This document shows, one piece after another, positions 46,899 through 60,114 of a stretch of DNA of 64,000 bases. Location of the stretch: NCBI RefSeq assembly GCF_003369835.1, contig NZ_QPMJ01000002.1:186001-250000 (forward strand), read 5' to 3'. A model generated the notes under the pieces. The model was not told the origin of the DNA. It saw nothing but the letters and a program-made list of their open reading frames with translations, and ran no database searches. Within the stretch, counting starts at the first letter, position 1. Each line of letters starts with the position of its first letter. This DNA comes from Halorussus rarus. Its GTDB lineage: Archaea; Halobacteriota; Halobacteria; Halobacteriales; Haladaptataceae. The position numbers were made by a program, and so were the translations under genes.

Positions 46899-48239
46899 CT
46901 ACCCGAGCAGCGAGACGCCCGCCAGCGCGAGCAGGTTCACCGCGAGCGTTCCGAGCAGGAAGAGGGGCAGAATCGTCCGCACGCTCCAGAGCCACGCCGG
47001 GCCGAGCGACCGGACGCCCGAGCCCGCGCCCTCGGAGAACTCGGCGACCGCGTCGGCGCCGAGCACCCACCCGACGAAGACGAGGAAGCCCGCGAGGCCC
47101 GCAGTCAGCATCAGGTCGACCAGCGTCCCGGAGACGAAGGTGAACAGCGCCGGCCGGAGCGCGTTGGCCGACCCGGTGACCAGGACGAGCCCCGAGAGCC
47201 CGAGGGTGGCGGCCCGGCGCGAGACGTCGTGCTCGTCGACGAGGTACGCCACCGGGATTTCGAGCATGCTGATCGACGAGGACAGCGCCGCGAGCACGAT
47301 GACGCCGAAGAAGGTGATCGCGAGCACCTGGCCGAACGGGACCTGCGAGAACGCGCCCGCGAGGCTGACGAACAGCGCGCCGGGCCCGCCGCCGGCGGCC
47401 GGCCCCGCCAGTCCGCCGACCGTCGCGAACAGCAGCGGGAACACCACCAGGCCCGCGAGCACGCCGACGCCGGTGTTGAGCACCGCGATGGCGCCCCCGT
47501 CGAACGCGAGGCTGTGGTCCTCGTCCAGGTACGAGGCGTAGGTTATCATCGTCCCCACGCCCAGCGAGAGCGTGAACAGCGCCTGGCCGGCGGCCGCCCC
47601 GACAACGTCGAGGAGATTGGCCCGCAGGTACGCGCCGTCGAAGTCGAGGTAGAACGACAGGCCGGCGTCGGCGCCCGGCTGGGTCACGGCCCACCCCGCG
47701 AGCGCGATCAGCAGGACGACGATGGCGGGCATCATCACCTTGGTCGCCCTCTCGATGCCGTCCCGGACGCCGCCGACCACGACCAGTCCGGTGAGCGCGA
47801 GGAACGCGACGTGGAAGCCGACCGCGGAGGCGCCGAAGTCGATACTCTCGAAGTACGCTCCCGGCGATCCGAAGTACGCGCCGGTGAAGCTGACGAGGAA
47901 GTACCGGAGAATCCACCCGCCGACGACGCTGTAGAACGACAGCAGGACGACGGCGGTCGTGACCCCGAACAGCCCGACCGCGCCCCACGACTTCGACCCC
48001 GAGGAGAGCCGGTAGAGCGCGCCCGCCGGGTTGCGCTGCGAGCGGCGTCCGATGACGAACTCCGCGAGCAGTCCGGGGACACCGACTACCAGGATGATGC
48101 CCAGGTAGACGACCAGGAACGCGCTCCCGCCGTTCTCCGCGGTCATCCACGGGAAGCGCCAGACGTTGCCGAGGCCGACGGCGCTCCCGACCGCGGCCAG
48201 GATGAAGCCGAGCCGGGTGCGCCACGATTCGCGTGTCAT
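46899..48239 (-). CDS. Sodium-dependent (NSS/SNF family) transporter
   Basis: A 446-residue transporter of the LeuT fold, with about 11-12 membrane helices. TM1 reads [17 protein letters not shown] with the unwound GLGN sodium/substrate site and the gate Arg; [10 protein letters not shown] and [12 protein letters not shown] follow. It should move amino acids or osmolytes with Na+ in. A TATA-like TTATATATTC (48297-48306) is about 60 bases upstream. It is followed upstream by a paralogue on the same strand at 48501-49835. Confidence 0.93.
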
Positions 48240-48500
48240 TGCTACGCACTCACCAGGCGCGCGGTAAGAGGGTTTCGAGTTTGGAACCGTAGGTTCGAAT
48301 ATATAATCATTCTCGGCCGGAAATTCGCGGTTTGTCCGATGTCTCGCCGACCGCTCGGAGGAGGTTTGGTTACGATTCGTAGAATCCGGGCGAGAATACG
48401 GCGGTGCAGGCTACGAATCGTAACCGGAACCGCCGCTGGGGGCGATTCCGGGGGCTTCGCGAAACGGCTCGAAAACGAGGGCGGTCGACCGGCGTCGGCG

Positions 48501-49835
48501 CTAGAAGTACGCTCCGTTGGTCAGGCCGGTGTAGAGCGACTTGATGCCCAGGTAGAGCGTGACGGCGACCGCGATGGGCACGACGGTCCGGACCCACCAC
48601 AGCCACCCGGTGGCGAACGACGAGCCGAGCGAGGAGCCCCGACCGAGTTCGTCGATCGACTCCACGTCGGCGATCCAGCCGACGAAGACCGCGAGCAGCA
48701 GCACCGAGATGGGGAGCAGGATGTTGAACACGAAGTCGTTGTAGAAGCCGAGCCACGACGTCCCGAACGTGGCGGGCACGCCGACGAGGCCGATGAGGAC
48801 GCCCATCGCCACCGCGACCGGCGCGCGGCCGTAGCCGTAGTTCTCGCTGACGAACGACACCGGCACCTCCAGCAGGCTGATGGAACTGGAGAGGGCGGCG
48901 AACAGCAGGACGACGAAGAAGACGAACCCGATGATGCCGCCCGCCGGGAGGCTGCCGAACGCGCCGGCGAGCGCGACGAACGCCGTCCCGGCGCCGCCGC
49001 CGGCGCCCTCGGCCCCGCCCGTGGCGAACAGGATGGGGAAGACGACGAAGCCAGCGAGCAGCGCGACGAGGGTGTTGACGACCACGATGGCGCCGCCGTC
49101 GGCCGGCAGGCTGTCGTCCTCACCGAGGTACGACGAGTAGGCGATCATCACGCTGAACCCGAGCGAGAGCGTGAAGAACGCCTGTCCCATCGCGGGCGGG
49201 ACGATGGACCAGAAGTTGTCGGCGAGGAGGCCGAAGTCCGGCGAGAGGTAGTAGCCGTACCCCGCGGACGCGCCGTCGAGGGTGGTCGCCCAGCCGGCGA
49301 GGCCGACGAGCAGGAGGAGGATGGCGGGGATCATGAACGTCGTCGCGCGCTCGATGCCGTCGGTGACGCCGGCCGCGACGATGCTGATGGTGATGACCAT
49401 GAATACGGCGTGGGCCGCGATGGCGACGGGCCCGGAGGCGACGGAGGCGAAGTAGGTCCCGGCGTCGCCGAAGTACGCGCCGTTCGCGCTCCCGACGATG
49501 TAGTTGAGGACCCACCCGCCCACGACGCTGTAGAACGACAGCGTCACGAGCGATGAGAACACGCCGAGTCCGCCGGCGACCGACCACTGCCCGTAGCCGA
49601 TGCTCCGGAACGCGGCGACCGGGTTCCGCTCGCCGCGCCGACCGATGACGAACTCGACCATCATCGTCGGGAAGCCGATGAGGACGACCGCGAGGAGGTA
49701 GACCACGAGGAACGCGGCGCCCCCGTTCGCCGCGGTCTGGAACGGGAACGACCAGATGTTCCCGAGCCCCACCGCGCTCCCGACCGCGGCGAAGATGAAT
49801 CCGATTCGACTCGTCCAGGTTTCTCGTTCTGACAT
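48501..49835 (-). CDS. Second NSS-family transporter, with Arg to Ser in the TM1 gate
   Basis: A 444-residue paralogue of the transporter at 46899-48239, sharing [11 protein letters not shown] and EFVIGRRGERNP. The TM1 sequence here is GNIWSFPFQTAANGG: the Arg that caps the substrate site in LeuT-type proteins is replaced by Ser. A different substrate or gate is suggested. The start is ATG 49835 (MSERETW), supported by a TATA element TTTTTAAG just upstream; longer frames upstream are not coding-like. Confidence 0.93.
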   Translation of the reverse strand: MSERETWTSRIGFIFAAVGSAVGLGNIWSFPFQTAANGGAAFLVVYLLAVVLIGFPTMMVEFVIGRRGERNPVAAFRSIGYGQWSVAGGLGVFSSLVTLSFYSVVGGWVLNYIVGSANGAYFGDAGTYFASVASGPVAIAAHAVFMVITISIVAAGVTDGIERATTFMIPAILLLLVGLAGWATTLDGASAGYGYYLSPDFGLLADNFWSIVPPAMGQAFFTLSLGFSVMIAYSSYLGEDDSLPADGGAIVVVNTLVALLAGFVVFPILFATGGAEGAGGGAGTAFVALAGAFGSLPAGGIIGFVFFVVLLFAALSSSISLLEVPVSFVSENYGYGRAPVAVAMGVLIGLVGVPATFGTSWLGFYNDFVFNILLPISVLLLAVFVGWIADVESIDELGRGSSLGSSFATGWLWWVRTVVPIAVAVTLYLGIKSLYTGLTNGAYF

Positions 49836-50113: not shown

Positions 50114-50899
50114 CTACGCCTCGCCGTAGACGGGGACCGCCGCGCCGCTGGTGACCGAGGTGGCGTCCGAGCAGAGCGCGAGCATCGTCTCGGCGATGTC
50201 GGCGGGGTCGACCCACGCGTCGTGGTCGGCGTCGGGCATCATCTCGCGGTTCGCGGGCGTGTCGATGACGCTGGGCATGACCGCGTTGGCCCGGACCGCA
50301 CCCTTCTCCTCCTCGGCGATGCTCTCGGTCAGCAGGCGGACGCCGGCCTTCGACGCCCGGTAGGGGGCGTCGCCCTCGCCGCCCTCCAGCGAGGCGCGGG
50401 CGCTGACGCTGACGATGGCGCCACGAGCGTCGTCACCGTCGCCAGCCCCGCCGTCGCCGTCGTCACCCGCGCCGTCGCCGCCCCCTCCGCCCTCACTGCT
50501 GCTCTCCCGGAGGTGGGGCAGCGCGTGCTTGGCGGCGAGGAACGTCGTCTTGAGGTTGACGTCGAACAGGAAGTCGAACGTGTCGGCGTCCGTCTCCGCG
50601 ACCGGAGTGCCGCCGCGCCACGTCCCGGCGACGTTGATCAGGTAGTCGAGGCCGCCGTGGTCGTCGACGATCTCGGAAACCACGCGCTCGACGTCGGCCT
50701 CGTCGGTGAAGTCGCCCTCGTAGAAGTCGATGCGCTCGCCGGCGTCGAGTTCGGCGTCCTCGTCGTCGGGCGCCACCACGTCCGCGGCCGCGACGGTCGC
50801 ACCCGCGTCCGCGAACGTCTCGCAGACCGCGCTGCCGAGCGCCCCGCTGGCGCCGGTGACCAGTACCACGCTGTCGCCGAAGTCGAAGCTGACGCTCAT
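50114..50899 (-). CDS. Short-chain dehydrogenase/reductase with a Gly/Asp-rich insert
   Basis: A 261-residue SDR. The cofactor loop is VTGASGALGS (14-23), the NAG-like motif is NVAGTW, the catalytic Ser is in VSVSARAS and the Tyr-Lys pair in YRASK. The acidic D of DVVAPDDEDAE after strand 2 favours NAD(H). A low-complexity segment (SSEGGGGGDGAGDDGDGG and on, about 133-158) is inserted before the Ser strand. It is 42 bases from the MDR gene upstream and possibly co-transcribed with it. Confidence 0.9.
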   Translation of the reverse strand: MSVSFDFGDSVVLVTGASGALGSAVCETFADAGATVAAADVVAPDDEDAELDAGERIDFYEGDFTDEADVERVVSEIVDDHGGLDYLINVAGTWRGGTPVAETDADTFDFLFDVNLKTTFLAAKHALPHLRESSSEGGGGGDGAGDDGDGGAGDGDDARGAIVSVSARASLEGGEGDAPYRASKAGVRLLTESIAEEEKGAVRANAVMPSVIDTPANREMMPDADHDAWVDPADIAETMLALCSDATSVTSGAAVPVYGEA

Positions 50900-52113: not shown

Positions 52114-55098
52114 ATGAGTTCGGAATCACGACGCGGGGAAAATCGAAGAGACGCGGCGCTGATGGCGGTACTGGTCGCGCTAGCGAGCGTGCTCGCGGGC
52201 GCGGGCGGCGCGGCCGCAGTCGCCGCCGAGGAGATAGGGACATCGGCGACAGACGCAACAGCTGCGCAGAACGGGGCGGACGTCACAGTTCCGCAGAACC
52301 GGGCGCAGGCCGGCGGCACGCTCTCGGGGACCATCGACCTCGCGAGCGCCGACACCGAGTTCGTCGGCGAGAGTTCGGAGGAAAAGGCCGGGTGGTCGCT
52401 GGCCAGCGTCGGCGACGTGAACGGCGACGGCCACGCCGACGTCCTGATCGGCGCGCCGTACAACGACGAGGGCGGCGACGACGCCGGCGCGGCGTTCCTG
52501 TTCTACGGGCCGGTCGACCGCGGCGACGTCGAACTCTCGGAGGCCGACGCGACCTTCGTCGGCGCCGCAGCGGGCGACAGAGCCGGCTACTCGGTCGCCG
52601 GCGGCGACCTGAACGGCGACGGCCACGCCGACCTCGTCGTCGGCGCGCCCGGCAACGACCGCGCCGCGACGGACGCCGGAGCCGCATACGTGATCTACGG
52701 CGGCGATTCGGTGACGGGAACGCACTCGCTCGCCGACGCCGACCTGGCGCTCGCGGGCGAGTCCGAGGAGGACAGGGCCGGCCTGTCTGTCGGCGTCGCG
52801 GCGAACCTGACGCGCGGCGACGGCGGCACGGTGCTGGTCGGCGCGCCCTACGAGGACGCCGGCGGCGACGACGCCGGCGCGGTCTACGCGGTCCTGGCCG
52901 CGGACGCGCCGACCGGGTGGGAGTCCCTCGACGACGCGAACGGGAAGTACCTCGGCGTGGAGGCGGGCGACAGAGCCGGCTGGTCGGTCGCCGACGCCGA
53001 GGACGCGAACGGCGACGGCTTCCACGAGATAGTCGCGGGCGCGCCGAGCGCCAACGCCAGCGCGCCGGACGCCGGCGCGGCCTACGTCGTCTCCGACGTG
53101 CTCTGGGCGGGCGACTCGGACCGCGACGGGGCGGGCACCGAGAGCCTCGCGGAAGCCGAGGCCCGACTCCTCGGCGAGGCGGCCGGCGACAGGGCCGGGT
53201 TCTCGGTCGCCACCGCGGGCGACGTGAACGACGACGGCCACGCAGACGTGCTGGTCGGCGCGCCGCGGAACGACGAGGCGGCCGAGAACGCGGGCGCGGC
53301 CTACGTCGTCCACGGCGAAGAGGGGCTGAGCGGCGACGTGAGCCTCGCGGACGCCGATTGGACGCTCCGAGGCGAAGCGGAGGACGACATGGCCGGGTGG
53401 GCGGTGTCCTCCGCCGGGTCCGGCGACGTCACCTGCGACGGCTACGCCGACGTCCTCGTCGGCGCGCCGTTCCACGACCCCGAGACCGGGAAGAACGCCG
53501 GTGCCGCCTACCTCGTCTACGGCGGGACCGGGGACCGGGACGCCAGCCTCGCGGACGCCGAAGCGACGCTGATCGGGGAGGAGAAGGGCGACCGCGCCGG
53601 TCGCGCGGTGTCGGACCTCGGCGACGCGACCGGCGACGGCCGCGAGGACGTCATGGTCGGCGCGCCGTACAACGACGACGGCGGCGAGGACGCGGGCGCG
53701 GCCTACCTCGTCCGCGGGAAGTGCCCCGTCGACGACGCGGAGACCACGACGACCACGACCACCGAGAAGGACGCCGAGGAACCGCTCCGCCCCGGGTTCG
53801 ACTTCGACTGCGAGCGGGTCGCGGTCTGGGCCCACGACTACGACGCGGTGAAACTGACGTTCGCCGACGGGAGCGCCCAGAAGTTCACCGGCGACTACGA
53901 GGGGCGCCACACCTTCCAGGGGGTCGACGAGCACGACGACAAGGTCGTGAAGAAGGTCTACGTCTACCGGGGCGACGAGAAGGTCCACGAGGTGAATCCG
54001 CACTACGAGGACTGCATCGAGACGACGACGACCGAGGAGACGACCACCACGACCACCAAGGAGACCGAGACGACCACCGAAGAGACGACCACGACTACGA
54101 CGAAGAAGACGCCCACGACGACCACCGAGAAAACGACGACCGAGACCCCGACGACAACTACCACGGAGGAGACGACGACCACGACGACCGAAACTACGAC
54201 CACTACCAGCACGACGAAGGACACGACTACGACGACCACCACGACCGAGACGACAACCGAAGAAACGACGACCGAGGAGACGACCACGACAACGACTGAA
54301 GACACGACGACTACGACCGAGACCACGACAACCACCACGACTACGCCAACTGAGACGACGACAACGAAGGACACCACAACGACGACCACTACTACCACAG
54401 AAGAGACCACCACTACGACGACGACCACCACAACCACCACAACGACGACGGAGACGACTACGACGACCGAGAAGACTACTACTACGACCGAGGAGACGAC
54501 CACGACCACTACGACAACGGAGACAACAACCACGACAACGACAACTACCACGACCACTACCACAACAGAGACGACGACCACGACCACCACAACCACAACT
54601 ACGACCACCACGACTCAGGACGATCGCGGCGCGATCAGCTTCATTGCGTTCTGCGTCGAGGGCGGGGAGCAACAGGGCAACGACCCCTGTCCGGACGGCG
54701 AGAGCCTGCTGGTCAAGTTCAATTGGAACGGCAACGCCTTCGTCCCCGAGGGCGGCGACTCCGAGGGCGTGACGGTGACCGTGACCGAGTTCAAGGACGG
54801 CGACCCGAGCGAGCCGGTCGAGGCGACCTGGACCTCCCAGCAGGAGATCTCCACGGTCGTCGTCAAGTCGAGCACTGACGAATGCGAGTACCCCGGCGGG
54901 AACGGCGGCATCGTCGAGTCCTGCGGCCCGCCGCCCGGCCAGCAGTCCCAGGGCGACCCGACCGGCGTCGCCTTCGTCGGCGTCGCGGGCGCGGCAATCG
55001 CGCTGGCGCACCGCCGCGAGAGCCGGCAGCGGCGCGAGGAGTACGAGGCCCACGAGCAGGGCGGGCGGACCGAGTCGAGCGAGAACCGCGAGGAGTAG
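52114..55098 (+). CDS. FG-GAP beta-propeller surface protein on a threonine-rich stalk, C-terminal membrane anchor
   Basis: A 994-residue exported protein. A signal-like helix (about 17-37) leads to seven FG-GAP repeats (about 60-530), each with a calcium-type DVNGDGHADVLIGAP core and AGAAYVVYG strand; repeat 3 is degenerate. Seven repeats fit one closed integrin-type propeller. A small domain with two Cys follows a first Thr run, then a stalk of about 200 residues that is nearly all Thr with scattered Glu/Lys/Pro, a target for O-glycosylation. A four-Cys domain (AFCVEGGEQQG, ECEYPGG) and a last hydrophobic helix with a basic end (PTGVAFVGVAGAAIALAHRR) anchor it. Likely an adhesin or cell-surface receptor. 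Confidence 0.88.
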   Translation: MSSESRRGENRRDAALMAVLVALASVLAGAGGAAAVAAEEIGTSATDATAAQNGADVTVPQNRAQAGGTLSGTIDLASADTEFVGESSEEKAGWSLASVGDVNGDGHADVLIGAPYNDEGGDDAGAAFLFYGPVDRGDVELSEADATFVGAAAGDRAGYSVAGGDLNGDGHADLVVGAPGNDRAATDAGAAYVIYGGDSVTGTHSLADADLALAGESEEDRAGLSVGVAANLTRGDGGTVLVGAPYEDAGGDDAGAVYAVLAADAPTGWESLDDANGKYLGVEAGDRAGWSVADAEDANGDGFHEIVAGAPSANASAPDAGAAYVVSDVLWAGDSDRDGAGTESLAEAEARLLGEAAGDRAGFSVATAGDVNDDGHADVLVGAPRNDEAAENAGAAYVVHGEEGLSGDVSLADADWTLRGEAEDDMAGWAVSSAGSGDVTCDGYADVLVGAPFHDPETGKNAGAAYLVYGGTGDRDASLADAEATLIGEEKGDRAGRAVSDLGDATGDGREDVMVGAPYNDDGGEDAGAAYLVRGKCPVDDAETTTTTTTEKDAEEPLRPGFDFDCERVAVWAHDYDAVKLTFADGSAQKFTGDYEGRHTFQGVDEHDDKVVKKVYVYRGDEKVHEVNPHYEDCIETTTTEETTTTTTKETETTTEETTTTTTKKTPTTTTEKTTTETPTTTTTEETTTTTTETTTTTSTTKDTTTTTTTTETTTEETTTEETTTTTTEDTTTTTETTTTTTTTPTETTTTKDTTTTTTTTTEETTTTTTTTTTTTTTTETTTTTEKTTTTTEETTTTTTTTETTTTTTTTTTTTTTTETTTTTTTTTTTTTTTQDDRGAISFIAFCVEGGEQQGNDPCPDGESLLVKFNWNGNAFVPEGGDSEGVTVTVTEFKDGDPSEPVEATWTSQQEISTVVVKSSTDECEYPGGNGGIVESCGPPPGQQSQGDPTGVAFVGVAGAAIALAHRRESRQRREEYEAHEQGGRTESSENREE
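54019..54615 (+). repeat. Threonine-codon microsatellite-like tract coding the stalk
   Basis: About 600 bases made almost wholly of ACN codons with interspersed GAG, GAA, AAG and CCG. The synonymous Thr codons are mixed (ACG, ACC, ACT, ACA), which will limit slippage; the length could nevertheless vary between strains. The antisense frame gives a Val-only shadow that is not a gene. Confidence 0.8.
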
Positions 55099-55106
55099 CC
55101 CGACGC

Positions 55107-55907
55107 TCAGAGGTAGTCGTCCAATTTCTCGGCGCTGAGTGCCAGATAATCGAAGTCGAAGGTGTACACCTCGACCGAGACCGTCCCGGTCCAGCCCTCG
55201 CGGAGGGGTGCCAGCGCGGTCTCGAAGTCCAGCGTCCCCGACCCCGTGGGGACGTGTTCGTCGGCGGCCTCGCGGGCGTCGTTGACGTGGACGTGCGAGA
55301 CGCGGTCGCCCCGATTTTCCAGGAAGTCCGCGGTGGCCTCGGCGTCCAGCCCGTCGACGCGGGCGTGGCCGGTGTCGAGGGTCGCGGCGGCCTCGGTCTC
55401 TTCGAACACGCGGTCGAGGTGGTGGATCGTGAACGGGACGCCCGGCAGGTTCTCGACGCAGATCTCGATCCCGCGGTCGGCCGCGAACCGGTCGAGGATT
55501 CTGATCGAGTCGAGCAGGTGGGGCGCGATCTCCTCCAGGTCCCACTCGGGCGGGCCGGCGCTGGTGCCGGCGTGGAGCACTGCCTTCTCGGCGCCCATGT
55601 CGGCGGCGACCTCGATGCAGGCGCGCTGCTCGGCCAGCGCGCCCTCCCGGACCGGGTTCCGGGGCGACCCGATCTCGATGCCGACGAACGGGAGGTGGAC
55701 CAGCAGGTCCAGTCCCTCCTCGGCCGCCGCCGACGCGACCGCGTTCGGGTCGAGGCGGGTGCGCTCGGTCGCACCGTCCATGTAGAGCTCCGCGAAGTCG
55801 AACCCGACGTCGGCCGCCTGCCCGAGCGCGTCCTCCCACGGCACCGCCCCGGTGTGAGTCTGGGTGACGTACCCCCGGCGGACGCCGTCGTCGGTCCCGT
55901 CGCTCAC
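55107..55907 (-). CDS. Sugar phosphate isomerase/epimerase-like TIM-barrel protein
   Basis: A 266-residue xylose-isomerase-like barrel (AP endonuclease 2 superfamily). GYVTQTHTGAVPWEDALGQA, LHAGTSAGPPEWDLEEIAPH, RGIEICVENLPG and LDTGHARVDGLDA place the usual Glu, Asp and His metal ligands at strand ends, closing with VSHVHVNDARE. A GTG start (55907) overlaps the NTase-HAD stop by four bases (GTGA), so it is coupled to that gene. Epimerase or isomerase activity on a sugar or polyol is likely; the substrate is not known. Confidence 0.85.
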   Translation of the reverse strand: MSDGTDDGVRRGYVTQTHTGAVPWEDALGQAADVGFDFAELYMDGATERTRLDPNAVASAAAEEGLDLLVHLPFVGIEIGSPRNPVREGALAEQRACIEVAADMGAEKAVLHAGTSAGPPEWDLEEIAPHLLDSIRILDRFAADRGIEICVENLPGVPFTIHHLDRVFEETEAAATLDTGHARVDGLDAEATADFLENRGDRVSHVHVNDAREAADEHVPTGSGTLDFETALAPLREGWTGTVSVEVYTFDFDYLALSAEKLDDYL

Positions 55908-57496
55908 CTCGGGTCGCCTCCCCGCACCGGGCGCGCCGCCGCGCCGTCTTCGGCCGACGTGGCCGCGTCGACGAACCGCGTGAGGGCGCCGGCCGACGGG
56001 GCGACCAGCGACGGCTCGACGTCGCTGAGTTCGACCTCGGTCCGGGTCGCGTCGCCGGTCAGCACGCAGACCGACTCGCAGCCGACGTTCTCGGCGAGCG
56101 CGACGTCGGTCTCCAGTCGGTCGCCGACGACCGCGACGTCCGTCGGGGCGTACCCCTCCTCGTCGAGGACGTGGTCGATCATCTCGGCGTTGGGCTTGCC
56201 GAAGACGCGGGCGGGCGACCGGTCGGTCGCCCGCTCTATCATCGCGGCGATGGAGCCGGCGTCGGGAACGAACCCCTCGGCCGTCGGGCAGACGGTGTCC
56301 GGATGGGCCAGCAGGAATGTGGCGCCGTCGCGGACCGCGAGGGTCGCCTTCCGGGCCTTCTCGTAGGAGAGCTCCGTGTCGAATCCCACGACGACGTACT
56401 CGGGCGCGTCGGCGCCCGAGCCGGGGTCATCGACGACCGGGACCTCGCGGTCGGCCAGCGCCTCGCGCATCGTCTCCGTGCCGAGAACGTACGTCTCGCC
56501 GGCGTCGGCCGACCGGAGGTACTCCAGCACGCCGTCGGTCGAGAGCAGCACGTCCTCGGGCAGCGCCGAGACGCCGAGGTCCGAGAGCCGCTCGGCGTAG
56601 TCGTCCTTCCACTTCGAGGAGTTGTTGGTCAGGAAGTAGACGTCGACGTCCGCGGCCCGCAGCGCCTCGACGAGCCGGTCGGCGCCCTCGACGAGCTCGT
56701 CGTCGAGGTAGATGGTCCCGTCGAGGTCGAAGAAGATCGCCTCCTTGGTCGCGAGGTTCGAGAGCGCGCCGAACCGGAGGTCCGCCTCCGCGAGGTCGTC
56801 GGGGTCGTCGACCTCGAGCCAGTCGTACGAGCCGACCTCGACCGGCTCGACGTCGTGGGTCCGGTTCCGGACGACCTCGTCGATGGCGAGTTCGGTCCAC
56901 TCGCCGTACTCCTCGTCGCGCTCGATGGTCCGGGTGATCTCGGCGAACAGCTTGCTCGAGAACGCCTCGGAGAACCGGTAGACGTCGTTGGAGATGCCGT
57001 GCGCCACGTCGGGGGGCACGTCCTTGGCGATGTGGCTCACGTGGCCGTCCTCGTCGACGGTGATCTTCATCGCCTCCTCGGAGTAGGTGTCGGGGTCGCA
57101 CGCCACCGCGCTGTCGGCGTCGGCCGCCACGAGGTCGGCCAGCAGCCCGGGCTCGAAGACGGCGTCGCCGTTGCTCAGGACGAACGGCTCGCCCGCGACG
57201 GCCTCGCGGGTGCGGTACAGCGAGTACATGTTGTCCGTGTTCGCGTACACCTCGCTCTCGACGACCGACACGTCCAGGCCGGGGTGGGCGTCCGCGACCT
57301 CGTCGCAGAGCGCCCGGACGTCGTCCGCGAGGTAGCCGGCGACGACGGTCACGTCCGTCACGCCGGCCTCGGCGTAGGCCCGGAGCTGGCGCGCGAGCAC
57401 GGGCGTCCCGCCGATGGAGACGCAGCTTTTCGGTTCGTGGAGCGTGAGAGGGCGTAGACGAGACCCGATGCCGGCAGCTAAGATGACTCCTTTCAT
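55904..57496 (-). CDS. Fused nucleotidyltransferase (phosphocholine-cytidylyltransferase-like) and HAD-IIA phosphatase
   Basis: A 530-residue fusion from ATG 57496. Residues 1-245 are a NTP-transferase: GVILAAGIGSRLRPLTLHEP, the product-binding LSNGDAVF and a NTDNMYSLYRTRE stretch like the LicC-type cytidylyltransferases. Residues 250-525 are a HAD of subclass IIA: IFFDLDGTIYLDDE (nucleophile and general acid Asp), YFLTNNSSK, GKPNAEMIDHVL and VVGDRLETDVALA. HAD-IIA includes glycerol-phosphate and phosphoglycolate phosphatases. The combination could convert an alcohol phosphate to CDP-alcohol. It is in the same cluster as GDPD and the TagF-like transferase. Confidence 0.88.
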   Translation of the reverse strand: MKGVILAAGIGSRLRPLTLHEPKSCVSIGGTPVLARQLRAYAEAGVTDVTVVAGYLADDVRALCDEVADAHPGLDVSVVESEVYANTDNMYSLYRTREAVAGEPFVLSNGDAVFEPGLLADLVAADADSAVACDPDTYSEEAMKITVDEDGHVSHIAKDVPPDVAHGISNDVYRFSEAFSSKLFAEITRTIERDEEYGEWTELAIDEVVRNRTHDVEPVEVGSYDWLEVDDPDDLAEADLRFGALSNLATKEAIFFDLDGTIYLDDELVEGADRLVEALRAADVDVYFLTNNSSKWKDDYAERLSDLGVSALPEDVLLSTDGVLEYLRSADAGETYVLGTETMREALADREVPVVDDPGSGADAPEYVVVGFDTELSYEKARKATLAVRDGATFLLAHPDTVCPTAEGFVPDAGSIAAMIERATDRSPARVFGKPNAEMIDHVLDEEGYAPTDVAVVGDRLETDVALAENVGCESVCVLTGDATRTEVELSDVEPSLVAPSAGALTRFVDAATSAEDGAAARPVRGGDPR

Positions 57497-57631
57497 AGCA
57501 ACACTGCACCATACCAGCACGTAGACGTCAATAACCTTGATGGCCTCAATATATCCGCTTCACGAGTGAAATAAAACAGGTAAGCGAAGAGGCAGAACGG
57601 CCACAGCTCGAAACAGCCGATGCGGCCGACC

Positions 57632-58549
57632 TCAGGGCTCGGAGTCGGCGTCGGCGACCGCGCCGGCGTCGGACGTGTCGCCGAACTGGAGGACGCCGGG
57701 GTAGTCGGCGATGACGCCGTCGACGCCGGCTCGCCGGAGCTGGTCGGCCTCGTACCACCGGTCGACGGTCCAGGCGTTGACCGCCCGGCCCTCCTCGTGG
57801 GCGGCCGCCACGATGTCGATGTCCTCGTAGGGGCCGAGCGAGCCGTACTCCGCGTTGAACAGCGGCGTCCCCGCGATCATGTTCCACGGCGGGTGGACCG
57901 CCTCGGCGTCGTACCGCCGCGCGACCTCCATCCCGTCGGCGATGGAGTCGGCCAACACGACCGCCACCGGAACGGAGGGGTCGACCTCGCGGACCGCCGC
58001 CAGGGCGCCCTCCGCGAACGACGAGACCAGCACGTCGTGGTCGTACGCCGCGAGCGCGTCGAGGACGTCCGCTGCGAACTCGCGCCAGAGGTCGGTCTGC
58101 TCGTCGCGGTCCTCGGGGGGAAGGTTCTCGCGCGGTCGAATCTCGGCCGAGCCCGGGTTCTTGAACTCGACGTTGACGCCGACCGCCGGGGGAAGCGCGT
58201 CGAGGACGTCCGCCAGGGTCGGAACCGGCTCGCCGGTGCCCAGGACCTCGAGGTCCGCGAGGGTCTCGTACGGCGTCTCCCACACCTTCCGGTCGGCGAG
58301 GTCGTCGGGGGCGTCGGTGAGTCGGCCGAGGTCGTAGTCGTGGAACGCGACGATCTCGCCGTCGGCGGTCGGCATCACGTCCACCTCGACCATCTCGGGC
58401 GGGCCGCCGAGCGCCGAGGTCGCCGTCGCCTGTTCGACCGCGGCCACCGTGTTCTCGGGGTAGACGCCCGCGAATCCGCGGTGCGCGATGAGCGATACGT
58501 CGGTGCTGTCGGTCGTCGCCTGCCGGGTCGTTGCGCTCGTTCGTTCCAT
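57632..58549 (-). CDS. Glycerophosphodiester phosphodiesterase
   Basis: A 305-residue GDPD-family enzyme. IAHRGFAGVYPENT (about 21-34) holds the catalytic HR..EN set, EVDVMPTADGEIVAFHDYDL (about 54-73) the metal Glu/Asp and second His, and VNVEFKNPG the next Glu. It ends in a VDGVIADYPG turn. It hydrolyses glycerophosphodiesters to glycerol phosphate and an alcohol. No signal peptide is present, so it is cytoplasmic. It lies between the NTase-HAD and TagF-like genes, on the same strand, with 135 and 161 bases between. Confidence 0.92.
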   Translation of the reverse strand: MERTSATTRQATTDSTDVSLIAHRGFAGVYPENTVAAVEQATATSALGGPPEMVEVDVMPTADGEIVAFHDYDLGRLTDAPDDLADRKVWETPYETLADLEVLGTGEPVPTLADVLDALPPAVGVNVEFKNPGSAEIRPRENLPPEDRDEQTDLWREFAADVLDALAAYDHDVLVSSFAEGALAAVREVDPSVPVAVVLADSIADGMEVARRYDAEAVHPPWNMIAGTPLFNAEYGSLGPYEDIDIVAAAHEEGRAVNAWTVDRWYEADQLRRAGVDGVIADYPGVLQFGDTSDAGAVADADSEP

Positions 58550-58710
58550 AGTGTGCGGTGGCGCTTCCGGGGACCGGAGGAAGCACCGCTGCCACCCTTG
58601 GCCGGGGGTTTCGACCTGCCGGACTTCAACTTTTCTCTCTGAATATACATACCGGTACGGAACGGCATAGAGACGACAGACGTCGCCCGAAACTACGTAG
58701 TCGACCGCCC

Positions 58711-60114
58711 TCACCGACTTTCGGCGTTCCGGACCGCGAGGCGCCGCCGGACGAGTCGGGCCACCGCCGCCGACCGCGAGGTCGGGGGCGCGCAGCCGGT
58801 CGAACGACCGGAATCTGTGGTTGCCTTGCCCTCCGGAGATTTCGTTCCTCCCACGGTCGCCGGGTCGGCCCCGAGGAGTCGCTCGCGAACCGCCGCGCGA
58901 CGGTCGGCGTCGGGGTCGTCGGTCGGGTCGAGCGCCCGGTCGAGGCCCGCCAGCAGGCCGTCGAACGTCCGGGCGACCGGGCCCGGGGCGACCGACTCGT
59001 AGTCGAAGTAGAACCCGCGGCGGGCGCGGTACTCGTCGAGGTCGTAGGCGTGGAAGACGACCGGCCGGTCGAGCAGGAGGTAGTCGAAGTAGATCGACGA
59101 GTAGTCGGTGACCAGCGCGTCGGCGTGCCGGAGGAACGGGTAGACGTCGGCCCCTTCGGGTAATTGGACCACCTGCCGGAGGCCGTCCGGGAGGGCGACG
59201 GTGTCGCGGGGATGGGTCTTGACGACGAGCGTCGCGGCGCGCTCGGCGAGGAACGCGTCGAGGGCATCGAAATCGAGGCGGTCGGCGGGCGACTCGTCGG
59301 TCCACTCCCGGAACGTCGGGAGGTAGAAGACCAGCGACTGGTCCGTTGCGAGGGCGCGGATGCGCGCCAGCGCGCCGCCGTCGAGGCCGATCCCCTCGCC
59401 CGGAATCGGCCCGAAGAGCGCGTCGTTTCGCGGATACCCCGCGAGCACCATGCGGTGACGGTCGATGCGAAGCCCCGACGCGAAGGCGTCGGCCACGCCC
59501 GCGCCGGGAACGGTGAGGAGGTCGAACTCCCCCGCCATGTCGGCGTGGCCCGCCCGGACCGCCGCCGGGAGGTCCCGGAAGCCGGCGTCCCACGAGATGC
59601 GCTTGAGGGGGACGCCGTGCCAGAGCAGGACGGTGAACGCGCCCGCGGTGGCGGGCATCGCGAGGTCGCGGTGGCCCTGCGTCAGGAAGACGGCGCCCGC
59701 CCGGAGCGTGAGCAGGAGGCCGCGGGGCGAGCAGGAGCGGTACGCCTCGAAGCCCGCCGCCTGGAGGGTGCGCACGACGTCTGGGTCCTTCGAGAGCCAG
59801 ACCGGCCGGATTTCGGGATGGTCGGCAGCCACGTGGAGGAAGAGGTACTTGGCGTTGTCCGCGAACGCCGACCCGCCGCGCGCGCCGAAGACCCACAGCG
59901 AACTGTCGCGGTCGAACGGCACCGCTGCCGGGTCGATGCCCGACACCCGGTCGCGGACGGAGTCGGCGGCCGCGACTCCGCGGAACAAGCCCCACTGAGC
60001 GAGAAACGACCCGTGGCCCGCGAGCGACGACCCTTCGCTCGCGGCGGCCGCGAGCGCTCGGACCGCCGCGGAAGCGCGCTCGGTCGGTTCGGCGACGCGC
60101 CCGGTCAGGTCCAT
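58711..60114 (-). CDS. CDP-glycerol glycerophosphotransferase (TagB/TagF-like)
   Basis: A 467-residue GT-B-type polymerase/primase relative with every main family motif: WHGVPLKR (165-172), GYPRNDALF (226-234), YLPTFREW (264-271), KTHPRD (299-304), TDYSSIYFDY (336-345) and GFYFDYESVAPGPV (367-380). Such enzymes add glycerol phosphate (or ribitol phosphate) from CDP-glycerol to lipid-linked acceptors, as in bacterial teichoic acids. It has a short N-terminal region without obvious membrane helix, so attachment would be peripheral. ATG 60114 is chosen by the first Met before family-like sequence. The last 40 residues are basic and polar. Confidence 0.92.
   Translation of the reverse strand: MDLTGRVAEPTERASAAVRALAAAASEGSSLAGHGSFLAQWGLFRGVAAADSVRDRVSGIDPAAVPFDRDSSLWVFGARGGSAFADNAKYLFLHVAADHPEIRPVWLSKDPDVVRTLQAAGFEAYRSCSPRGLLLTLRAGAVFLTQGHRDLAMPATAGAFTVLLWHGVPLKRISWDAGFRDLPAAVRAGHADMAGEFDLLTVPGAGVADAFASGLRIDRHRMVLAGYPRNDALFGPIPGEGIGLDGGALARIRALATDQSLVFYLPTFREWTDESPADRLDFDALDAFLAERAATLVVKTHPRDTVALPDGLRQVVQLPEGADVYPFLRHADALVTDYSSIYFDYLLLDRPVVFHAYDLDEYRARRGFYFDYESVAPGPVARTFDGLLAGLDRALDPTDDPDADRRAAVRERLLGADPATVGGTKSPEGKATTDSGRSTGCAPPTSRSAAVARLVRRRLAVRNAESR

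Follow-up and report, generated by a model that had tools for sequence, protein, structure and literature searches.

In the 64,000-nucleotide stretch of Halorussus rarus DNA analyzed here (the window; contig NZ_QPMJ01000002.1, positions 186,001 to 250,000), four neighboring genes appear to form a module that activates a small alcohol phosphate with cytidine triphosphate (CTP) and hands it to a TagF/TagB-like transferase of family PF04464. This coupling of CTP-dependent activation to a PF04464 transferase is well supported by the sequences and is the best-supported statement that we make. We further lean towards the view that the module, which is conserved in haloarchaea, as a whole serves the activation and transfer of a small polyol phosphate, most likely glycerol phosphate. 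Comparison of sequences and genomes establishes the enzyme classes, a CTP-type active site and the coupling of nucleotidyltransferase to TagF in two gene arrangements. An earlier first-pass annotation, made from the letters alone, had placed the four genes in this order on one strand; their positions and order were confirmed, with all four on the minus strand, and the family assignments scored far over their cut-offs:

58711..60114, minus strand: TagF/TagB-like CDP-alcohol (CDP, cytidine diphosphate) phosphotransferase, 467 amino acids (PF04464, Glyphos_transf, E 2.8e-60)
57632..58549, minus strand: glycerophosphodiester phosphodiesterase (GDPD), 305 amino acids (PF03009, E 2.3e-34)
55904..57496, minus strand: fusion protein, 530 amino acids, with a predicted CTP:phospho-alcohol cytidylyltransferase domain (residues 1-240) and a HAD-IIA phosphatase domain (about residues 252-510)
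56777..57496, minus strand: the predicted cytidylyltransferase (LicC/PntC/CpgD-like) domain of the fusion (PF12804, MobA/LicC-like nucleotidyltransferase, 2e-15; profile search of the PDB)
55967..56743, minus strand: the HAD-IIA phosphatase domain of the fusion (PF13344, 9e-22; TIGR01460, 137.2 bits against a cut-off of 100.15)
55107..55907, minus strand: TIM-barrel metalloenzyme of the AP_endonuc_2 superfamily, 266 amino acids, GTG start (PF01261, 5.6e-34)

The stop of the fusion gene and the start of the TIM-barrel gene overlap by 4 bases, and the gaps between the remaining module genes are 135 and 161 bases. AlphaFold2 models of the fusion (predicted local distance difference test, pLDDT, 90; predicted template modeling score, pTM, 0.86) and of the TIM barrel (pLDDT 88, pTM 0.88) were confident.

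A profile (A3) for the nucleotidyltransferase domain was built from 24 sequences, some fused to the HAD domain and others from stand-alone proteins of other haloarchaea. Its top five PDB matches were all cytidylyltransferases of the LicC type, the best being LicC (1.5e-31), PntC (8.9e-27), IPCT (8.9e-21) and IMPCT (3.2e-20); LicC, PntC and the inositol-phosphate cytidylyltransferases were matched over their full length (1.5e-31 to 5e-20) and above every sugar enzyme. The fusion's domain carries the motif GXGSRX8PK, and R13, K23 and D111, the catalytic Arg/Lys/Asp of the LicC type, are invariant in the 24 sequences, while the S/T of the GXG(T/S)R motif may be K or R in stand-alone forms. Also invariant are T87/N89/S92, N109/D111, M143, K158 and W200. 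In structures of Caulobacter CpgD, Thr88 and Thr93 contact cytosine, Asn90, Gly12 and Gly111 contact the ribose, and Asn90, Asn110, Met147, Lys161 and Ser170 make up the glycerate site (PMC13228409). By spacing, CpgD Arg16, Thr88, Asn90, Thr93 and Asn110 (PMC13228409) correspond to R13, T87, N89, S92 and N109 here, and Gly111, Met147, Lys161, Ser170 and Trp201 to G110, M143, K158, S169 and W200; these equivalents, except G110 and S169, are common to the fused and stand-alone arrangements. Sugar-type paralogues of the same genome carry a different, Q-x-G-like pattern at these positions, and in HMMER alignments the active site is unlike those of LicC and IPCT at the M143 and W200 positions. In the nucleotidyltransferase tree, fused and stand-alone forms are sister clades (95/91), from which six sugar-type paralogues encoded by the window's own genome are separate. 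Because the profile ranking and the active-site residues match CTP:phospho-alcohol enzymes, the domain likely uses CTP. Assignment as a sugar-1-phosphate nucleotidyltransferase was ruled out by profile search, motif and tree. The first-pass annotation had called the domain cytidylyltransferase-like, and it indeed has the residues of CTP:phospho-alcohol enzymes, not those of the same genome's sugar-1-phosphate nucleotidyltransferases.

To assess conservation of the module, we sampled class Halobacteria evenly, taking 194 genomes. The fusion is present in 17 of these and PF04464 in 31, including all 17 with the fusion. The hypergeometric P for co-occurrence is 2e-16 by genome and 1.5e-4 by genus, but both figures ignore relatedness; a fairer measure is that six genera have the fusion and all six have PF04464. 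Of the 17 fusion genomes, 14 have TagF, GDPD and fusion genes side by side on a single strand, 16 have GDPD next to the fusion, and 14 have the TIM-barrel gene adjoining, ahead of TagF in one family and behind the fusion in another. Mere synteny of close relatives is not favored as an explanation: the flanking genes differ from genus to genus while the module stays, and the TIM-barrel gene switches side. The genes are kept together in several haloarchaeal families, so that neither conservation nor the residue comparison above went against the first-pass annotation. In a phylum-wide sample of 345 genomes the fusion was confined to the order of the window's own genome, and in a scan of named genomes Halohasta salina (class Halobacteria), a relative that also carries the module, gave the only full-length fusion match among the matches listed. 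One locus (L071; G106:C1:1840000-1859999) holds a lone fusion gene, and a TagF of another clade, about 28 kb off, sits in a glycan-type cluster.

Seven further genomes (G047, G053, G060, G071, G101, G134 and G157) show a second arrangement, in which a stand-alone nucleotidyltransferase without a HAD domain lies directly upstream of TagF at a gap of -55 to +4 bases. Some of these pairs are near genes for Glycos_transf_1, Glycos_transf_2 and polysaccharide pyruvyl transferase. In the TagF tree, the partners from both arrangements fall into a single clade (89/85), and TagFs without such a neighbor lie outside it. None of the 194 genomes scored over the 165.4-bit cut-off for TagD (TIGR01518), and none had IspD/TarI (PF01128); hence these genomes lack the enzymes by which bacteria usually make CDP-glycerol and CDP-ribitol, even though TagF occurs among them.

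The TagF-like protein scored 204.7 bits against PF04464 (curated cut-off 22.1), and its H166 and H301 align with histidines 444 and 584 of Staphylococcus epidermidis TagF (3l7i); residue 584 is the position changed in chain 3l7m, on numbering deduced from the alignment. These two histidines of S. epidermidis TagF we take to be the catalytic pair. Equivalents of H166 and H301 are retained in every full-length haloarchaeal copy examined, and both histidines plus a TDYSS motif in nearly all haloarchaeal PF04464 copies. The TagB/TagF-like family claim of the first-pass annotation is upheld by the PF04464 score and the two histidines. The NCBIfam equivalog cut-offs for TarF, TarL and TarB were not reached (88.3/550, 68/1000 and 37/500 bits). 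The window's protein is devoid of a strongly hydrophobic segment, whereas a number of orthologues carry an N-terminal stretch of moderate hydrophobicity. CDP-glycerol combined with TagF-type transfer is familiar from bacterial teichoic acids and capsules. Elsewhere among the haloarchaea, the PF04464 match of one genome (G129, locus L084) is in two pieces ~1.1 kb apart, so that TagF may be interrupted, with a distinct nucleotidyltransferase bearing a T-x-x-x-Y-S-L motif close by; another (G064, locus L079) has three PF04464 genes in ~8 kb, separated by genes that resemble glycosyltransferases and phosphodiesterases.

The remaining domains all resemble phosphate-ester hydrolases. In the fusion's HAD domain, D257/D259, K434 and D459 are invariant. 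It resembles p-nitrophenyl, phosphoglycolate and glycerol-phosphate phosphatases, with TM1742 (1vjr) and PH1952 as best matches and, by structure, the glycerol-phosphate phosphatase Rv1692; it is below the cut-off for 2-phosphoglycolate phosphatases of the TK1734 type (NF053752, 182.7 against 475 bits). Phosphatases fused to the nucleotidyltransferase that they feed have precedents in other pathways, and because such fusions are known we would guess that the HAD domain may prepare or spare the nucleotidyltransferase's substrate. In GDPD, the HRG motif, E55/D57, H70 and N126-x-E128-x-K130 are invariant in 16 orthologues. Neither an export signal nor a strongly hydrophobic segment was seen in the sequences of GDPD, fusion or TIM barrel, and GDPD has no signal peptide or membrane segment. 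Since it has no export signal, GDPD probably acts in the cytosol and not on a surface polymer. A secreted polymer-degrading GDPD is not favored, given the lack of a hydrophobic N-terminus, and the proposal that this enzyme turns over a surface polymer was not supported.

The TIM barrel had previously been taken for an isomerase, an assignment that we abandon. Nine metal ligands of endonuclease IV type (H71, H112, E152, D178, H181, H205, D216, H218 and E246) are invariant in 14 orthologues and align with Mycobacterium tuberculosis endonuclease IV (5zhz), whereas in UlaE five of the nine positions (H71, H112, H181, D216 and H218) are occupied by different residues. Because all nine ligands are retained, the protein is probably a phosphodiesterase rather than an isomerase. 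A sugar isomerase was rejected on the metal ligands, although the fold search alone favors epimerases: MJ1311 and sugar epimerases rank first in Foldseek at a template modeling (TM) score of 0.7-0.8, where the fold is non-discriminating. The protein falls below the equivalog cut-offs for Nfo (47.2/244 bits) and CbiR (78.9/105 bits). Orthologues of at least 57% identity are restricted to module loci, and distant paralogues are scattered (63 genomes match at E 1e-30). In the 194-genome sample, paralogues of 34-54% identity are widespread away from module loci.

We propose the following scheme; its sequence of reactions, the acceptor and what HAD domain, GDPD and TIM barrel do in it are inferred, as is glycerol as the alcohol. 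The N-terminal domain of the fusion would convert CTP and a three-carbon alcohol phosphate, likeliest sn-1 or sn-3 glycerol phosphate, into a CDP-alcohol, likeliest CDP-glycerol. The TagF-like enzyme would then transfer the glycerol-phosphate unit to a membrane-bound acceptor (a glycolipid or lipid-linked glycan), either as a single addition or as a chain. Cytosolic GDPD would supply glycerol phosphate from glycerophosphodiesters, and the HAD-IIA domain and the endonuclease IV-like TIM barrel might trim or recycle phospho-alcohol intermediates and balance glycerol phosphate against glycerol. Glycerol is most likely the alcohol because of the PF04464 family of the transferase and the linked GDPD. 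The earlier suggestion of CDP-alcohol synthesis and transfer with its own activation route is supported by the conserved gene set and the CTP:phospho-alcohol residues.

Several observations weigh against this scheme. CDP-glycerol, although the most likely product, is itself a putative assignment. The fusion of one genome (G106) lies 28 kb from a TagF that the tree places in another clade, with neither GDPD nor the TIM-barrel gene adjoining, and in two others (G024 and G147) TagF is on another contig, even if by the tree it belongs to the fusion clade. No glycosyltransferase was recognized near the fused module among the N-terminal sequences of the window's called genes, most of them without a Pfam scan. 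The CpgD match rests on residue spacing, not alignment, and CpgD, the closest match in its reported pocket, accepts phosphoglycerate, not glycerol-1-phosphate (PMC12275187), so the product could be CDP-glycerate.

In that case 2- or 3-phosphoglycerate would be the substrate that the fusion activates to CDP-glycerate, from which the TagF-like enzyme would move phosphoglycerate to a lipid or glycan, along the lines suggested for CpgD in the synthesis of Caulobacter ceramide diphosphoglycerate. The invariant M143 and K158, spacing equivalents of the CpgD residues Met147 and Lys161 above glycerate, are consistent with this, as is a HAD domain nearest to phosphoglycolate and glycerol-phosphate phosphatases. 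We nevertheless consider it unlikely: to our knowledge, all characterized PF04464 enzymes use CDP-glycerol or CDP-ribitol, the Caulobacter genome used as a control lacks a PF04464 match, the linked GDPD would yield glycerol phosphate and not phosphoglycerate, and the equivalent of CpgD Ser170 is not conserved in the stand-alone form. Quite unlikely, in our estimation, is transfer by TagF of some other CDP-alcohol, such as CDP-ribitol, a CDP-choline-like compound or CDP-inositol. The closest characterized relatives of the nucleotidyltransferase act on phosphocholine (LicC), aminoethylphosphonate (PntC) and inositol-1-phosphate (IPCT), and PF04464 takes in ribitol-phosphate enzymes; yet the differences from LicC and IPCT at M143 and W200, the lack of TarI/IspD in the sample and the GDPD linkage, which indicates glycerol, argue otherwise. 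The module might also serve mainly in glycerophosphodiester salvage, with GDPD and a TIM-barrel phosphodiesterase freeing glycerol phosphate, the HAD domain dephosphorylating it, the CDP-alcohol as a side branch and TagF acting on membrane lipid with no surface polymer. Three of the five domains being phosphate-ester hydrolases, the missing export signals and the missing glycosyltransferase near the fused form would all suit salvage, but the minimal unit in the seven stand-alone genomes is nucleotidyltransferase plus TagF, with no GDPD, HAD or TIM adjoining and partly in polysaccharide clusters, which makes this explanation improbable.

Returning to activation and transfer of glycerol phosphate, a CDP-glycerol-forming activity that prefers sn-glycerol-1-phosphate (Gro1P) has been found in Archaeoglobus fulgidus lysate, its gene being reported as unidentified (PMC8262930). 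We tentatively raise the idea, which we hold to be rather doubtful, that the LicC-type domain is an archaeal CTP:sn-glycerol-1-phosphate cytidylyltransferase, and that the haloarchaeal envelope would bear a glycerol-phosphate structure resembling teichoic acid but of mirror-image (sn-1) configuration, built by way of CDP-1-glycerol and TagF. No TagO, TagA or exporter was recognized among the window's called genes, and no genome-wide search was made for them. A literature search turned up nothing published on a teichoic-acid-like polymer of haloarchaea, with most subscription papers outside its reach.

Beyond the TIM-barrel gene, and between it and oxidoreductase genes, lies a gene (52114-55098, plus strand) whose 994-amino-acid product contains FG-GAP repeats as well as a long tract rich in Thr and Glu; it was not seen at the equivalent position of the related loci L056, L058, L060 and L061. 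Two tandem SNF-type sodium symporter genes and an SDR gene (46899-49835 and 50114-50899, both minus strand) are found after the module in a number of same-family relatives as well.

If our preferred reading is correct, the fusion provides a specific gene to clone as candidate archaeal CDP-glycerol synthetase, an enzyme measured by its activity but with its gene reported as unidentified (PMC8262930), and archaeal glycerol-phosphate surface structures, and the enantiomer that they contain, become testable. The haloarchaeal system would use the same transferase family as the bacterial teichoic-acid route with an activator of a different protein family, in two arrangements. Like TagF, TagB, TarF and the TagF-like capsule polymerases, its transferase has the PF04464 family, fold region and catalytic histidines; unlike bacterial TagF/TarF systems, it is paired with a LicC-type and not a TagD- or TarI-type activator. 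TagD/GCT glycerol-3-phosphate cytidylyltransferase shares the proposed reaction (CTP + glycerol phosphate to CDP-glycerol) but belongs to an unrelated protein family. LicC, PntC, IPCT and CpgD share with the nucleotidyltransferase the motif GXG(T/S)RX4-8PK, the cytosine-reading T-x-N-x-x-S/T and a full-length profile match, whereas the haloarchaeal domain shares its chain with a HAD-IIA phosphatase and has a PF04464 transferase as its partner. CpgD (PMC12275187, PMC13228409) has equivalent cytosine- and acceptor-site residues by spacing, but it is not described as a fusion, its product is CDP-glycerate and its Caulobacter host is without a PF04464 match in the control genome. Lastly, the TIM barrel resembles the endonuclease IV and CbiR phosphodiesterases in its nine aligned metal ligands, with CbiR as the top NCBIfam match, but lies under both curated cut-offs and has a global fold that also matches sugar epimerases.

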